Part shown: positions 20,564 through 29,038 of the stretch, piece by piece
Position numbering within the stretch: position 1 is the stretch's first letter
Layout: every line of letters starts with the position of its first letter
Assembly (NCBI GenBank): GCA_944320795.1
Contig: CALUIU010000004.1
Span: 62,001-126,000, forward strand
DNA: 64,000 nt
Direction of reading: 5' to 3'
Source: Candidatus Paraprevotella stercoravium
GTDB taxonomy: Bacteria > Bacteroidota > Bacteroidia > Bacteroidales > Bacteroidaceae
Translations under genes and position numbers: made by a program
Notes under the pieces: generated by a model
What the model was told of the DNA's origin: nothing
The model's input: the letters and a program-made list of their open reading frames with translations, nothing else
Databases searched by the model: none

Positions 20564-21301
20564 TCACATGATGCCGCTCAAGAAATCTCCGGCCAGAGGC
20601 AGAGTTTCCGGCTTTCCGATATCCAGAAGTTTCAGATCGGGACGACAGACGGCCTGAATATGCGCCCGATGGCATACGGACAGATAAAAGTCGATGATGG
20701 AGAACTTGTCGGGCCATGCGGCCATTTCCGGAAACAGCGACGGCGAAAAAGTATGGATGCCGGCAAAAGCATATTTACGACATGTCGCGGGATCCAGGTC
20801 GGGGTAAGGAGACTTGACCTGTCCGGTCTTTTCGTTGATCCATCCCTTCAGTCTGCCGTTCTCGTCGAAGAGCAGATAGCGGAACGTGTTCCGCTCACTG
20901 ACCAGCAACGCAGCATCGAAATCCCGCCCCTGCCGGTAAAACTCTTCCAGCGACACGTTGGACAGGATGTCCACATTATGCACCAGAAAGGGTTCCTCAC
21001 CGGAAGAAAAGAAGGCGGCCGCCTTCTTGATACCTCCACCGGTATCCAGCAGCTCCTCCGTTTCGTCGCTGACCCACAGACGGGGACGTTCCGTGGTCTG
21101 CAAGGTTTGGATGTGGCGCTTCATCAGATCGGCGTGATGATGCACATTGATCACGATGTCCGACACACCGGCACGATCCATTTTCCGGACCAGCAGGTCG
21201 AGCAGCGGCGTACCGCCCACCGGAATCAGCGCTTTGGGAATCCGGTCGGTCAGCGGACGCAGGCGGGTTCCGAGACCCGCCGCAAAAATCATTGCTTTCA
21301 T
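20564..21301 (-). CDS. MurU-like sugar-1-phosphate nucleotidyltransferase
   Basis: The 245-residue protein starts [30 protein letters not shown], the nucleotidyltransferase signature with GxGTRLxPxT and the Lys of PKAL. It is short, without the left-handed helix domain of GlmU, as in MurU. MurU makes UDP-MurNAc from MurNAc-1-phosphate in wall recycling; this role is inferred mainly from the gene just upstream, which encodes an AmgK-like kinase. Other NDP-hexose activities are possible. It is the last gene of a long operon. The start at 21301 is the first ATG in frame with the motif. Confidence 0.82.
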
Positions 21302-21311
21302 GATATTTCCT

Positions 21312-22799
21312 TTATTTCCGGGGCAGGAAACTGGTCGAGATTCCCTGTTCCCGATGACACACATTCACTTCTATCCCATATTTCTCGTGCAGATGTACGG
21401 CCACATGCTGTGCCGAATACACGCTACGATGCTGGCCGCCGGTACAACCGAAGCAGAACATCAGATGTGTAAAGCCGCGCTGCAGATAGCGTTCCACATG
21501 CGCATCAGCCAACGCATAGACCGAATTCAGGAATGTCAGAATCTCGCCATCCTCTTCGAGGAAGCGGATGACCGGTTCATCCAGACCGGTGAGATTCCGG
21601 TAAGGCTCGTATTTTCCCGGATTATGTACGGCACGGCAGTCGAACACGTAGCCTCCCCCGTTACCCGACGGATCTTCGGGAATCCCCTTGCGGTAAGAGA
21701 AGCTGAAGACCGACACTTTCAGCGCGGCGGTCCCTTCCAGTTTCACCTGAGGTGCGGATGCCGGAACAGGAGCGGCCGGCTCCTCGCCTTTAGGACAGAA
21801 TTTCGGATGCCGCACCAGATTCCAGAGTACTTCCTCCAGATACGGACAGGTACAGATTCCCTGTTCGAGCAGCGCGCGCAGATTATCCAGAGCAAAAGGT
21901 ATGCTGTCCATAAAATACTGTTTCCGCTCGCAATAGCCCCTCAAGCCATAAGCGCCCAGCACCTGTAAAGTACGGAAAAAGACAAAAAGATCCAGACGTT
22001 TCCGGAAATGCTCCGGATCGACCGAATCATAAGCCCGCAAGGCTTCGAGATAAACGGCTATCAGCTCCTCGCGCAGTTCAGCCGAATAATGCGCGGAAGC
22101 CTGCCACAGAAAACTGGCCACATCATATTCACGAGGTCCCTTCCGTCCTCCCTGAAAATCGATAAAGAACGGCTGGTCTGCGGCAGAGAGCATGACATTA
22201 CGGGCCTGAAAATCGCGATACAGAAACGTCTGTGACGATTCCTGCAACAAGTCGGCGGCCAAAGCCCGGAAATCCTCTTCCAGCTTTCCTTCATGGAAAT
22301 CCACGCCGCTGGGTTTGAGGAAACAGTATTTGAAATAATTGAGATCGAACATCACCGCCTCGTGATTCATCTCGGGAAGCGGATAACACGCAGAAAAATC
22401 AAGTCCCTGACGCGCGGCATACTGCACGGACGGCAGCAGACGGATGGTGCGTTTCAGCAGTTCCCGCTCGTAGCTGTCATACTGCCCGCCCTTTTTCCGT
22501 CCTCCGGCCAGAGCATCATATAAGCTACGGTTTCCCAGATCGGTCTGCAGATAACATATCTGCTCCTCGTCAGCGGCCAGAATCTCGGGTACGGCCAATC
22601 CCTGTGCCCGAAAGAAGCCGCTCAGGTAAATAAAGGCGGCATTCTCCTCACGGGAAGTACCCACGACCCCGATCACCGAATGTCCGTCCTCCTCATACAA
22701 CCGATAATATTTCCGGTTGCTTCCGGCACCGGCAAGCATTTCCACACGAACCGGTTCCTTCTTTTTCCAGTCCCGGTATAAAGTCAACAGTCTGTTCAT
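21312..22799 (-). CDS. AmgK-like amino-sugar kinase fused to a RapZ C-terminal domain
   Basis: The 495-residue two-domain protein begins with an aminoglycoside-phosphotransferase-type kinase (about residues 1-330), with a Brenner-like motif FLYRDFQARNVML and the metal-binding FIDFQGG, as in AmgK, the anomeric MurNAc/GlcNAc kinase. From about residue 361 it matches the C-terminal domain of RapZ: VFSFSYRKGIP, YVFDCRAVHNP, LTGLDEPV and GCTGGQHRSV. In E. coli that half of RapZ binds glucosamine-6-phosphate and contacts its RNA and protein partners; the RapZ N-terminal P-loop half is absent here. The start ATG overlaps the permease stop (ATGA) and MurU follows, so a wall-recycling role is a good inference. 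Confidence 0.85.
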   Translation of the reverse strand: MNRLLTLYRDWKKKEPVRVEMLAGAGSNRKYYRLYEEDGHSVIGVVGTSREENAAFIYLSGFFRAQGLAVPEILAADEEQICYLQTDLGNRSLYDALAGGRKKGGQYDSYERELLKRTIRLLPSVQYAARQGLDFSACYPLPEMNHEAVMFDLNYFKYCFLKPSGVDFHEGKLEEDFRALAADLLQESSQTFLYRDFQARNVMLSAADQPFFIDFQGGRKGPREYDVASFLWQASAHYSAELREELIAVYLEALRAYDSVDPEHFRKRLDLFVFFRTLQVLGAYGLRGYCERKQYFMDSIPFALDNLRALLEQGICTCPYLEEVLWNLVRHPKFCPKGEEPAAPVPASAPQVKLEGTAALKVSVFSFSYRKGIPEDPSGNGGGYVFDCRAVHNPGKYEPYRNLTGLDEPVIRFLEEDGEILTFLNSVYALADAHVERYLQRGFTHLMFCFGCTGGQHRSVYSAQHVAVHLHEKYGIEVNVCHREQGISTSFLPRK

Positions 22800-24004
22800 A
22801 ATCGCACTCCTTTCCGATACCAAATGGCAATAACCTTACGGTGAACGGCCCAAACATTAATGGCACTGACCCCCAACAGCAGGAATCCGCCAAGCAGATA
22901 AGCCGGCAGCATACTTCCTCCGTTCATCTGCGGGAAGATCTGATACAACATATCCATATAATACGCACGGATCCAAGCCAACAGAGCCAGAGACAGCAGA
23001 AGTACCAGCACATTCATGCCCACGGTCAATGCCTGATACGGGAAAGACACCCGTTGCGGCGTATATCCGATGAGCAGCAGATTTTCCAGTTTCTGCGTAT
23101 TCTTCTCTACCAGCAGATAAATGCTGAGCATCAGGATGTAGAAAGACAGGGCACTGATCAGCAGACCCACACTCATGATAATGCCCGAAACCATTTTCAG
23201 GAAAAAGGTTGTTTTTCCGGCATCGAGCTTATCATCGTCCGTTTCATAATTCATTTTCTTAAAATAGCTGGTGATGGCATCATCCGTAGGATTCTTTACT
23301 TCGACAATCAGACGGGAAGGTTCCGCCCCCTCTTCGGGAGCATATTCCCGGTTACTCCATTCCAAAAAGGCCTCGGGCACCAGAATGGTATTCAGACGTG
23401 TGCTGAAACCAATCACCTTGCCTTTGTAATAACCTTCCTTACCGTTTCCCCGAATCCGGACAGCCAGATCGATGGCTCCGATAAGCCCTTCGGACATTTT
23501 CGGCAAGGAACGGCTCTGGGCAAAGCCGAAATTATAGATGGTAAGATAATTCTTTGGCAGAATAATAGGGATGACTCCCTGCTGCGGATCAAAGCGCCAC
23601 TGGGAAAGATCGGTGTCCACAAAAGCATCCGGAACCGACTCAAAGAACAGTTCGGTACGGAAAGCCGGTGTTCCGGCCAGTCCCATACTGGCATCTACAG
23701 AATAGCGGCTGGAGTTGAAGGTGCCTACCGATTTCGTGAAACGCTGCGCCTTCATCTCCTCGATTTCCTGCGGCTTGAAAGTAGCGGCAGATGTTGAAAG
23801 AGAATGAGCCACGGAGAGGCGTTTGGACACAATCAGAAAATCCTTCTTGATAAAGCTGTCTCCCTGAGTAAAGACCGGAAGAACGTCATGATAGAACTGA
23901 AAACTCAACAACACAATCAACATACCCAGCAGATTGGCAAAAAAGAAACCGGCCAACTGCGGTTTACTGATATGCTGACGCAACAATTTCCAAACCAAAT
24001 TCAT
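22796..24004 (-). CDS. FtsX-like ABC transporter permease
   Basis: This 402-residue membrane protein has an N-terminal membrane segment (FFFANLLGMLIVLLSFQFY), a large extracytoplasmic domain (about residues 45-265), then three membrane segments, the layout of the FtsX/MacB permease family. Such pairs drive extracytoplasmic mechanical work or lipoprotein/peptide handling rather than classical import. Its start overlaps the ATPase stop by 4 bp and its stop overlaps the kinase start by 4 bp, so translation of the three is coupled. The substrate is unknown. Confidence 0.85.
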   Translation of the reverse strand: MNLVWKLLRQHISKPQLAGFFFANLLGMLIVLLSFQFYHDVLPVFTQGDSFIKKDFLIVSKRLSVAHSLSTSAATFKPQEIEEMKAQRFTKSVGTFNSSRYSVDASMGLAGTPAFRTELFFESVPDAFVDTDLSQWRFDPQQGVIPIILPKNYLTIYNFGFAQSRSLPKMSEGLIGAIDLAVRIRGNGKEGYYKGKVIGFSTRLNTILVPEAFLEWSNREYAPEEGAEPSRLIVEVKNPTDDAITSYFKKMNYETDDDKLDAGKTTFFLKMVSGIIMSVGLLISALSFYILMLSIYLLVEKNTQKLENLLLIGYTPQRVSFPYQALTVGMNVLVLLLSLALLAWIRAYYMDMLYQIFPQMNGGSMLPAYLLGGFLLLGVSAINVWAVHRKVIAIWYRKGVRL

Positions 24005-24645
24005 AATCTGAACACTTTATCGTAATTTAAATCCATGTGTTTTCCGATACTCGTCACTACGACTGTCGCTCCCTGCCGGTGAGCCTCCTCCATCATCAGT
24101 TCGGCCATAATACGGCTATTCTGTTCATCAAGGTGACTGATCGGCTCATCGGCCAGCAGAAAATCAAACGGCTGCACCAGGGCACGGATCATCGCCACAC
24201 GCTGCTGCTGTCCGAAACTCATCAGGCCGACCGGAGCATCCACCTTGTCTCCGATACCCAAGGCCTCGAACCAGCTCAAGATCTCTTTTTTCGTCTTAAA
24301 TTTTGTCAGACCGTTCTTGATACTGATATTCTCATAAGCTGTCAGTTCGGGAAAGAGACGCAGTTCCTGAAAAAGGATGCTGAGCGACTCGCGCCGCAAA
24401 TGCGCCCAGTCACGGATACGCAAATTGCGGATATTCTCTCTATCAAAATTTATAATTCCCTGATAATCCCGTCTGTATCCGGTAATATAACTACACAAGG
24501 AAGACTTGCCCGTACCGGAACTGGCTTCAATCAGATAAAGTTTTCCCCGTTCCAGAGAAACTTCCTGATGCCAGATTTCACTCTGAATGTCCGACCGGGT
24601 GGCAAAAACCTCCGGCAGGACATTCTTCAGCGCTATATGTTCCAT
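24001..24645 (-). CDS. ABC transporter ATP-binding protein (FtsE/LolD type)
   Basis: The 214-residue ATPase has Walker A EASSGTGKSSLCS, a variant signature LMSFGQQQRVAMIRAL (in place of LSGGQ) and Walker B FLLADEPISHLDE. It is the partner of the FtsX-like permease encoded next, with a 4-bp overlap. Its own start overlaps the stop of the preceding gene (TAATG). FtsE/LolD-like members power envelope remodelling or lipoprotein release; the exact role here is unknown. Confidence 0.88.
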   Translation of the reverse strand: MEHIALKNVLPEVFATRSDIQSEIWHQEVSLERGKLYLIEASSGTGKSSLCSYITGYRRDYQGIINFDRENIRNLRIRDWAHLRRESLSILFQELRLFPELTAYENISIKNGLTKFKTKKEILSWFEALGIGDKVDAPVGLMSFGQQQRVAMIRALVQPFDFLLADEPISHLDEQNSRIMAELMMEEAHRQGATVVVTSIGKHMDLNYDKVFRL

Positions 24646-26105
24646 TATTCAAACAATTGTTTCAAACCACTTTCTTTGTTTTTCAGGTAAAAGATCAGAT
24701 CCATTGATGTAGCTTTAGTAGAACGCAGAGCCACGGCCTTGAATTTTCCGAAGAAACGCTCTACCTGCTGTACCTGCGGATTCTGTTCCGAGAGTCCCAT
24801 GGAGCGGATGACTCCGTTAACGGCTCCCAGATTTCCCCAGACATAAAACTTACTCTCCCGGATATCATCCTCATAAGGCTTCAGCAAATCACTATCCATA
24901 CCTTTCTGCAGCCCGTTCATCGCAGAGCGGCTTGTGGTGAAAAGCACATTCCGGTCTTTCAGTCCCAGGAACAGATCCTGAGGAGCCACCTTTCCGATCC
25001 GGTACAGATCCTCATCCACACGTTCAAACTCATAGTTGCCGGAAGCCCGTGCCGAACTGATCCAATAATCCGCATCGTCCATAAAGGAAAGATCGGACAT
25101 ATGCGCCTGTACACAGACAACCGGTTCGCCGTCCACCGTTCCGGAAAGAGCCACATCTCCGTCAATACTCCGGATCATCCGTTCCACATCCATCACATGA
25201 TTCATGGCCATCAGATAAAGACGCAACGGAGGAATCTCACTCATGAGCTGCATCAGCTTGTCTCCTTTCAGATTGGCTCCCATCCACAGAGTGGTGTTCG
25301 GAGATACAGAAGTAAGGAAGTCTCCGTCAATCTGTCCGCTCAGATCATCCAAGGCCTTCATTTTCTGGGCAAGAGCCGGATCCTCGGACAACACACCGGT
25401 ATGGAAAACGATCTGCCCCTTTTTAGACTCTATAGACAAGGTCATGAGCATCTTGCTGAAATCCACATGTTCCGGCAATCCCAGATTCTGAAACATCCGG
25501 TAATACTCCGGAAACATCTCCAGAGAAACGGCAGCCTTCAGGACTCCGTCCTGCTCCTGCATTTTCTTGTATAAAGGCGCTTTCAGAACACTCTCACTCT
25601 TATCCTGTTTCAGGTATCCCAACATACGCTGGCGCATCTCGGCCTGTGCCGAAGCAAGGGTCGGTCCCATAATCATCAGCACATCATCGTCGAACCCCAA
25701 GACAAAACTGCCGGATACCAAACTCCAATAATATCCCTGCTGTTCTTCCACCGGAGTGATTCCCATACGCTCACCGTTTTGGGCCAGGAACTCCTTCAGT
25801 TCGCCAGCATCCTTCACAGCCAGCAAACAGCCGTTCATCCCCACAGCATCGACAAAAACATAGGCATGCTTTTCCCAGTCGATACCGCAGTTCCATACAT
25901 CCATATGCTCAGGAAGCAAAGTCTTGATCTTTTCTTCGGAAAGCTCACTCTCCTGCAGGAACCCTTCCAGATCCAGTTCCATCAGAGCTGTCGCATCAGC
26001 CGGAACGACCCGCACATGAGCAGACTGGTCCTTAGGCCAGAAAAACCACACGGCCAATACCACGACCAGCAGAGCGATAACGCCCACGATCCATTGTTTT
26101 TTCAT
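24645..26105 (-). CDS. Membrane-anchored DUF4836-like protein
   Basis: The 486-residue protein has an uncleaved-looking N-terminal membrane anchor (WIVGVIALLVVVLAVWFFW, residues 4-22) and a large extracytoplasmic part starting HVRVVPADATALMELDLEGFL. That opening resembles DUF4836-type Bacteroidetes proteins (VIPADA, then a self-self beta/alpha domain). The match is moderate and I would not exclude a neighbouring family. It precedes the ABC ATPase with a TAATG overlap, so it probably works on the same extracytoplasmic substrate. The function is unknown. Confidence 0.6.
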   Translation of the reverse strand: MKKQWIVGVIALLVVVLAVWFFWPKDQSAHVRVVPADATALMELDLEGFLQESELSEEKIKTLLPEHMDVWNCGIDWEKHAYVFVDAVGMNGCLLAVKDAGELKEFLAQNGERMGITPVEEQQGYYWSLVSGSFVLGFDDDVLMIMGPTLASAQAEMRQRMLGYLKQDKSESVLKAPLYKKMQEQDGVLKAAVSLEMFPEYYRMFQNLGLPEHVDFSKMLMTLSIESKKGQIVFHTGVLSEDPALAQKMKALDDLSGQIDGDFLTSVSPNTTLWMGANLKGDKLMQLMSEIPPLRLYLMAMNHVMDVERMIRSIDGDVALSGTVDGEPVVCVQAHMSDLSFMDDADYWISSARASGNYEFERVDEDLYRIGKVAPQDLFLGLKDRNVLFTTSRSAMNGLQKGMDSDLLKPYEDDIRESKFYVWGNLGAVNGVIRSMGLSEQNPQVQQVERFFGKFKAVALRSTKATSMDLIFYLKNKESGLKQLFE

Positions 26106-28776: not shown

Positions 28777-28882
28777 AAAAAGTTTTTTGATTATCTGCCC
28801 GTCCGTAAAAAAAATCATGAAGTGTGAAAATGAAAATGTTTTTCTGGCCCGCTCCGGTTCTTACTAAGGAAGAAACCTATAT

Positions 28883-28951
28883 AAAAAAAAGAAGGTTGTC
28901 ATCTCGACAACCAATCTTTTCGTTAACCTTAAATCTAATACCATGAAAAAC
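28883..28951 (-). ncRNA. Candidate small terminator-ended RNA
   Basis: On the minus strand there is an exact -7 box TACCTTTG (28958-28965) with an ATTG 19 bp upstream. About 40 nt downstream comes a perfect hairpin GGTTGTC-GAGAT-GACAACC (28894-28912) followed by a long U-run (28883-28890). This defines a transcript of about 69 nt with no gene of its own. It lies in the 310-bp gap between rlmI and the nupG-like gene and could be a stand-alone sRNA or a premature-termination leader. The family is not recognised with certainty. Confidence 0.5.
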
Positions 28952-29038
28952 ACGATGCAAAGGTAGTGCTTTTTCATGAACTTGCAATAGTTTAAAGTGT
29001 ATTTTCATTCACTTTTACATCAATTAACATATATAATT

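Follow-up and report, generated by a model that had tools for sequence, protein, structure and literature searches.

A fusion of an AmgK-type kinase with the RapZ C-terminal domain in Bacteroidota and its possible place in MurNAc salvage

The fusion of an AmgK-type kinase with the C-terminal domain of RapZ (RapZ_C) is real, is common in Bacteroidota and is tied to AmgK. RapZ_C is present in 228 of the 619 genomes examined, and AmgK is present in every one of these 228, whether the two are fused, adjacent or unlinked. (What this means operationally is that the link is obligate in one direction: RapZ_C was never seen without AmgK.) The association hints that RapZ_C either carries out or regulates a step next to that of AmgK in the recycling route. 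The domains, their folds, the intact motifs, the linkage and the co-occurrence are observed; on function, the favoured reading, tentatively held, is of a bifunctional enzyme whose RapZ_C half would dephosphorylate a sugar 6-phosphate, probably MurNAc-6P, and then hand the sugar to the kinase.

The fusion gene lies in the window, that is, the whole 64,000-nucleotide stretch of DNA that was analysed, which comes from a 2.8 Mb genome that is 97% complete. The open reading frame 21312-22799 on the minus strand starts with ATG and encodes 495 aa; were translation to begin at a TTG 24 nt further upstream, the protein would have 503 aa. Its RapZ_C is the sole one found by a search of this genome. The nearest named relatives among the matches listed are from Paraprevotella and Prevotella-type Bacteroidales, the closest of those listed being a Paraprevotella MAG with 65% identity in the best segment. 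The features that matter here are these:

21312..22799, minus strand: AmgK-like kinase and RapZ_C fusion, 495 aa (open reading frame, Pfam, AlphaFold2, Foldseek)
22020..22733, minus strand: APH/AmgK kinase domain, residues 23-260 (PF01636, E 1.5e-16)
22197..22226, minus strand: Brenner-type catalytic motif FLYRDFQARN, residues 192-201, with D196 and N201 (conservation)
22146..22166, minus strand: metal-site motif FIDFQGG, residues 212-218, with D214 (conservation)
21729..21791, minus strand: disordered linker, residues 337-357 (pLDDT below 50, AlphaFold2)
21345..21722, minus strand: RapZ C-terminal domain, residues 360-485 (PF22740, 110.2 bits; the genome search puts it in the same place)
21423..21449, minus strand: predicted phosphate-binding loop GCTGGQHRS, residues 451-459, with C452, H457 and R458 (conservation)
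20564..21301, minus strand: MurU-like nucleotidyltransferase, its ATG 10 nt past the fusion stop (NCBIfam MurU models)
22796..24004, minus strand: upstream gene, ABC-permease-like by its position beside an ABC ATPase (no Pfam match; context only)

The end of the upstream gene overlaps the start of the fusion in an ATGA, and a gene similar to it is found in 10 of 84 related loci. The same gene run also holds a DUF4836 protein (24645-26105, minus strand) between the ABC pair and RsmE, likewise kept in 10 of the 84.

The identity of the C-terminal half is well defined. The PF22740 match (residues 360-485) has an E-value of 9.4e-32 and a score far above the Pfam cut-off of 27 bits; the NCBIfam RapZ model scores this part of the protein at 91.7 bits, below its equivalog cut-off of 244. 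AlphaFold2 gives a mean pLDDT of 90.2 for the whole chain and 91.6 for the C-domain alone, with a whole-chain pTM of 0.67, so that the relative placement of the two halves is uncertain. Searched with Foldseek, the C-domain model finds E. coli RapZ (E 4.5e-9, TM 0.77, 32% identity), the first non-RapZ row having an E-value of 0.49. A sequence-only reading of this DNA had proposed a RapZ-like fold after residue ~360, and that is what the model contains. RapZ's own P-loop N-terminal domain is missing from the fusion according to Pfam, with the kinase standing in its place, and Pfam finds no HAD domain in the protein.

As to the N-terminal half, the whole chain is matched by Foldseek to APH-fold kinases, best to 3csv. 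Its best NCBIfam kinase models are two for AmgK, at 70.9 and 36.4 bits, both scores lying below the equivalog cut-offs (NF045759, 550; NF045698, 500). The catalytic Asp (D196), the Asn (N201) and the metal-binding Asp (D214) are intact in all 36 fused proteins compared, as are F192, R195, F197 and R200 of the first motif and I213, Q216 and G218 of the second. By sequence this half is probably an AmgK-type kinase, for which MurNAc or GlcNAc would be the substrate, much as the sequence-only reading had supposed. The same reading placed MurU next door; the two top NCBIfam models of the downstream gene are indeed MurU (110.8 and 107.1 bits, both below cut-off).

The distribution of the fusion was followed in a phylum sample of 395 genomes drawn over Bacteroidota and in an order sample of 228 genomes from the window's order, 619 genomes together. 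RapZ_C occurs in 49 of the 395. The 48 loci other than the window comprise 36 in which it is fused to the kinase and 12 in which it is a stand-alone gene of 133-165 aa; RapZ's own P-loop domain is carried by none of the 49 proteins, as judged from their length and kinase match. With these 36 fused loci and at least 591 confirmed relatives, the fusion is not a local artefact. MurU follows the fusion in 29 of the 36 fused loci and is present in 56 of the 80 relatives kept as named loci. Ten genomes without an adjacent MurU have a MurU-like gene elsewhere, found with a model that also matches other nucleotidyltransferases. Eight of the 12 stand-alone loci are ordered kinase - RapZ_C - MurU, one keeps MurU while its kinase lies at another site, and the remaining three have neither gene close by. 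The matches listed for the order sample include seven stand-alone cases (frame below 200 aa), all of them kinase - RapZ_C neighbours and four with MurU.

On a tree of 62 kinases the fused label has to change 8 times, the split label 6 times and the label for a missing RapZ_C 4 times (4, 4 and 2, respectively, if only changes forced by well-supported branches are counted). One genus holds both forms: in G031 the split consists of a stop codon followed by an ATG (L072, 7882-7920), and its sister species G124 is fused. Two genomes of a single genus have their stand-alone RapZ_C far from AmgK and 32-37 nt away from an MFS transporter (L041, 6727-8541; L045, 6673-8393). Tannerella, in one species of which (T. 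forsythia) AmgK and MurU are said to act (PMC7670621), is represented among the fusion-bearing loci by two MAGs (L159, L163).

The tie to AmgK holds in one direction. A high-scoring AmgK (254-490 bits with the kinase profile) is present in 50 of the 395 phylum-sample genomes, and 49 of these are exactly the 49 with RapZ_C. In the order sample AmgK (E <= 1e-20) is found in 192 of 228 genomes and RapZ_C in 182, all within the 192. The converse does not hold: 11 genomes (ten from the order sample, plus G009) have AmgK and no RapZ_C. (One of the genomes counted as having AnmK and lacking RapZ_C, G403, is in 460 contigs with a weaker kinase match, maybe an assembly gap; the AmgK loci of G403, G416, G500, G528 and G599 were left out of the locus reading.) Among the separate-gene cases examined RapZ_C is a free neighbour of the kinase in 15 of 19, and in four genomes (G306, G271, G180, G331) the two are unlinked and nonetheless kept together, which suits an enzyme acting in trans. 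Linkage and co-occurrence thus uphold the earlier suggestion of a functional connection between kinase, RapZ_C and MurU.

Which residues of RapZ_C are kept bears most directly on what it does. Across the window and its 48 relatives no variation is seen (49/49) at G246-G250, H252-V255, D182, R184, N188, P189 and H276, in E. coli numbering. The Cys, Thr, two Gly, His, Arg and Ser of the loop are also invariant in all 80 named loci, residue 456 being Q or R (GCTGGQHRS in 74, GCTGGRHRS in 6, of the 80 drawn from at least 591 relatives). The K251 position is Gln in 48 of 49 and the H190 position is Gly in all 49. The core motif of cysteine phosphatases is C-x2-G-x2-R-S. The fusion's C-T-G-G-x-H-R-S fits this core; the CxxGxxR(S/T) loop of cysteine-dependent phosphatases is accordingly present in 49/49, and in the AlphaFold2 model it sits between a strand and a helix. 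Homology to protein tyrosine phosphatases (PTPs) by fold was considered and set aside: among the best 50 of 162 Foldseek rows for the C-domain model there is no PTP fold, and only RapZ chains appear at E <= 0.001, so that the likeness is limited to the loop.

The pocket of E. coli RapZ has been described in several papers. It has previously been likened to the PTP phosphatase loop (PMC7199280), it holds malonate or sulfate (PMC5737377), and it is thought to hold GlcN6P (PMC9841335), which the C-terminal domain binds with a KD of 10 nM (PMC7073468). Islam et al. report that C247A and C247S inactivate E. coli RapZ, that H190 is needed, and that a soak with GlcN6P left what is likely a chemically transformed product in the pocket, and they suggest that the SH group has a specialised catalytic role (PMC9841335). 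GlmZ binding was lost in the tested C247 variants as well (PMC9841335), and a catalytic defect is therefore not required to explain their inactivity. NTPase and phosphatase activities of YvcJ are stated in the GlmR paper, citing Luciano 2009 (PMC7525490), and HpaP has ATPase and phosphatase activity according to the title of a cited paper. The sequence-only reading had taken RapZ_C for an amino-sugar sensor. Of the five phosphate-pocket residues of E. coli RapZ (H190, T248, G249, H252 and R253), four are kept in 49/49, together with C247, and the loss is confined to H190, which is gone throughout; this leaves the sensor reading undecided. By its sequence, the intact CxxGxxRS loop would suit a catalytic role no less than a sensing one.

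The favoured scheme, of which the kinase substrate, the phosphatase activity, its substrate and the hand-over between halves are all four inferred, is as follows. In the RapZ_C half, the C-x5-R-S loop would bind an amino-sugar 6-phosphate, whose phosphate group R458 and H457 would hold in place, and hydrolysis would proceed through C452. The freed sugar would be passed to the AmgK-type N-terminal half, which would place a phosphate onto C1 of MurNAc (or GlcNAc), and MurU, the product of the next gene, would convert the kinase product to UDP-MurNAc. RapZ_C would thereby do the job that the unrelated HAD enzyme MupP does in Pseudomonas, MurNAc-6P to MurNAc. The more specific proposal, made with somewhat greater reserve, is that RapZ_C is the missing MurNAc-6-phosphate phosphatase of anabolic salvage in Bacteroidota, a non-homologous replacement of MupP fused to AmgK, with MurNAc-6P going in and MurNAc-1P coming out. 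The constant company of AmgK and the invariant loop (49/49 and 80/80) support a domain that acts as an enzyme. Against a phosphatase stand the glycine at the H190 position, with no general acid known, and the consideration that these genomes may have a MupP-like HAD enzyme. (NF009695, model PRK13222.1-2, was tried as a marker of MupP and dropped: it matches 14 of 14 controls and does not tell MupP from other HADs.)

The genes that supply and drain MurNAc-6P offer a test of this scheme. AnmK generates MurNAc-6P, which is either drained to GlcNAc-6P by MurQ or taken by MupP, AmgK and MurU to UDP-MurNAc (PMC5371407). MurQ is found in all 30 sampled genomes with AnmK and without RapZ_C (hand-picked from 240; two below the curated cut-off), as against 16 of the 31 with both AnmK and RapZ_C (two below cut-off), a difference with a Fisher value of 6.5e-6 that ignores shared descent. 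In these calls G091, G292, G001 and G365 (in two pieces) were counted despite scores below cut-off, and SIS-domain matches of ~20-45 bits, mostly in frames near 600 aa, were not. AmgK and RapZ_C are both present in each of the 15 genomes that have AnmK and lack MurQ; these genomes are expected to make MurNAc-6P and should therefore need some MurNAc-6P phosphatase.

RapZ_C can also be compared with AnmK itself. AnmK is present in 271 of the 395 phylum-sample genomes and in 31 of the 49 with RapZ_C (weakly in G216), which amounts to no phylum-wide enrichment of RapZ_C with AnmK. In favour of the scheme, among AmgK-bearing genomes of both samples RapZ_C occurs in 176 of 178 with AnmK versus 52 of 61 without (Fisher 1.7e-4 in the order sample and 1.0e-4 in the union, shared descent ignored); with ancestry counted, the comparison rests on 2 independent pairs if only well-supported branches are used and on 4 if all are, and p is 1. 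It also tells against a phosphatase that 52 of the 228 RapZ_C genomes lack AnmK, and that G569 keeps AnmK and AmgK and is missing RapZ_C. In the window's own genome, profile searches for AnmK, MurQ and PF01869 give no match, so that it shows no known source of MurNAc-6P. Of the 18 phylum-sample genomes with RapZ_C and no AnmK, 13 have a PF01869 (MurK-type) protein of ~300 aa (85-144 bits), and MurNAc-6P may arise by another route in such genomes; G230 has a weak PF01869 match beside MurQ. G230 and G238, of one genus, are reciprocal: the first has AmgK-RapZ_C and no AnmK, the second AnmK and neither AmgK nor RapZ_C, and both have MurQ. In two genomes of one genus (G306, G271) RapZ_C lies within 10-16 kb of anmK, a proximity that was discounted, the intervening genes being by eye not of this pathway.

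Salvage clusters of another composition also occur. The 84 genomes of the f18 family have a distant AmgK-like kinase and neither RapZ_C nor AnmK (their kinase matches, at 83-143 bits, were set apart from the 178 and 61 AmgK-bearing genomes counted above). One of their loci (L165, 1603-6210) reads, by Pfam, kinase - MurU-like nucleotidyltransferase - NamZ exo-muramidase - SSF transporter, and a second (L166, 5264-9913) is similar by eye. NamZ frees unphosphorylated MurNAc, and the absence of both AnmK and RapZ_C from this family counts in favour of the phosphatase reading. By gene content, these loci look like a MurNAc import and salvage cluster that operates without RapZ_C.

It is possible, if doubtful, that RapZ_C is instead a sensor, which would bind but not turn over GlcN6P or a similar sugar phosphate and would switch the AmgK half up or down, matching salvage to the de novo supply of amino sugars. 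The tight GlcN6P binding of the E. coli domain and the retention of C247, T248, G249, H252 and R253 speak for this, and GlcN6P is expected in every member, the window's genome included, where a maker of MurNAc-6P was not found. Obligate co-occurrence and fusion with a kinase suit a regulatory domain too. On the other hand, H190 is gone here as well, RapZ_C is a free neighbour of the kinase, or unlinked to it, in the separate-gene genomes described above, and a pure sensor has no need of a nucleophile-like cysteine, although C247S also kills E. coli RapZ (PMC9841335). The data do not decide between enzyme and sensor. The enzyme is favoured and the sensor stays close behind, because of the AnmK-less genomes, the window's genome with its want of a MurNAc-6P maker, G569, the few independent losses and the loss of H190.

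A structural role, in which RapZ_C would dimerise the kinase or dock MurU or another partner and have no ligand of its own, is improbable. RapZ C-terminal domains do form dimers in E. coli (PMC5737377) and contacts with the protein GlmR account for part of YvcJ's action (PMC7525490), but the invariant positions cluster in the phosphate loop and at D182, R184, N188, P189 and H276, which a scaffold would not need, and AmgK, by inference, works without RapZ_C in 11 genomes.

The sequence-only reading had also raised RNA binding, as in E. coli, which would tie salvage to a small RNA. Seven basic residues on the GlmZ path were examined, and three stay basic (K170, K/R in 47 of 49; R184, 49/49; R196, K/R in 44 of 49). 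Against this, four are mostly not (K194, R211, R238 and K251 are K/R in 9, 5, 0 and 1 of 49), H190 is gone, and the basic tail is lost, what follows H276 being short (median 10 residues) with a median charge of 0. Net charge over the 49 domains ranges from -7 to +12, the maximum being reached in one member, with a mean of +0.5; the corresponding E. coli stretch is +2 and the window's domain -4. For YvcJ, the GlmR paper says that there is no evidence of RNA binding and that the protein is without the RNA-binding consensus (PMC7525490). The window does contain an sRNA of the FopS family (28882-28953, minus strand; Rfam RF04319, 83.2 bits against a gathering threshold of 56), upstream of the minus-strand gene run that ends in the fusion and MurU; Rfam finds no such sRNA in the 10 of the 84 related loci that were searched, and it is judged unrelated to the fusion. 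RNA binding by RapZ_C is thus weakened as a claim and unlikely on sequence grounds, and an RNA link to salvage would be a very long shot.

What gives the fusion wider interest is that RapZ has been studied as an RNA adapter and GlcN6P sensor, with the role of its conserved cysteine loop left open in the published accounts (PMC7199280, PMC9841335). Here is a natural family in which the domain accompanies one metabolic kinase in each of the 228 genomes found to have it and in which the RNA features have eroded, and the question of a catalytic loop can be put to it directly. If the phosphatase reading is true, RapZ_C becomes a candidate enzyme for dephosphorylating MurNAc-6P in Bacteroidota, a step to which no enzyme was seen assigned in the accessible text of the literature searched. 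One domain of the E. coli RNA regulator would in that case be related to a phosphatase of peptidoglycan salvage. The matter bears on how MurNAc is returned to UDP-MurNAc in gut and oral Bacteroidales. No description of an AmgK-RapZ_C fusion was found in the literature searched, which excludes most subscription journals, in keeping with the earlier impression that its function is undescribed.

The fusion can be set beside four known systems. With AmgK and MurU of Pseudomonas it shares the APH fold, AmgK as its best NCBIfam kinase models and a MurU-like neighbour; it differs in scoring far below the AmgK equivalog cut-off (70.9 bits versus 550) and in its extra RapZ_C. It has in common with cysteine-dependent protein tyrosine phosphatases the CxxGxxRS loop between strand and helix, whereas their fold is unmatched among the best Foldseek rows. 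Gly precedes the Cys of the fusion's loop at the place where the PTP motif has His. E. coli RapZ and its B. subtilis homologue YvcJ are like it in the C-terminal fold, the invariant loop and D182, R184, N188, P189 and H276; in contrast to them it is without the P-loop N-terminal domain, H190 and most of the RNA-path residues, and has an AmgK kinase instead. Finally, Pseudomonas MupP is a HAD enzyme and the fusion has no HAD domain, yet the step proposed for RapZ_C would be the one that MupP takes in the same route, just before AmgK (PMC5371407).
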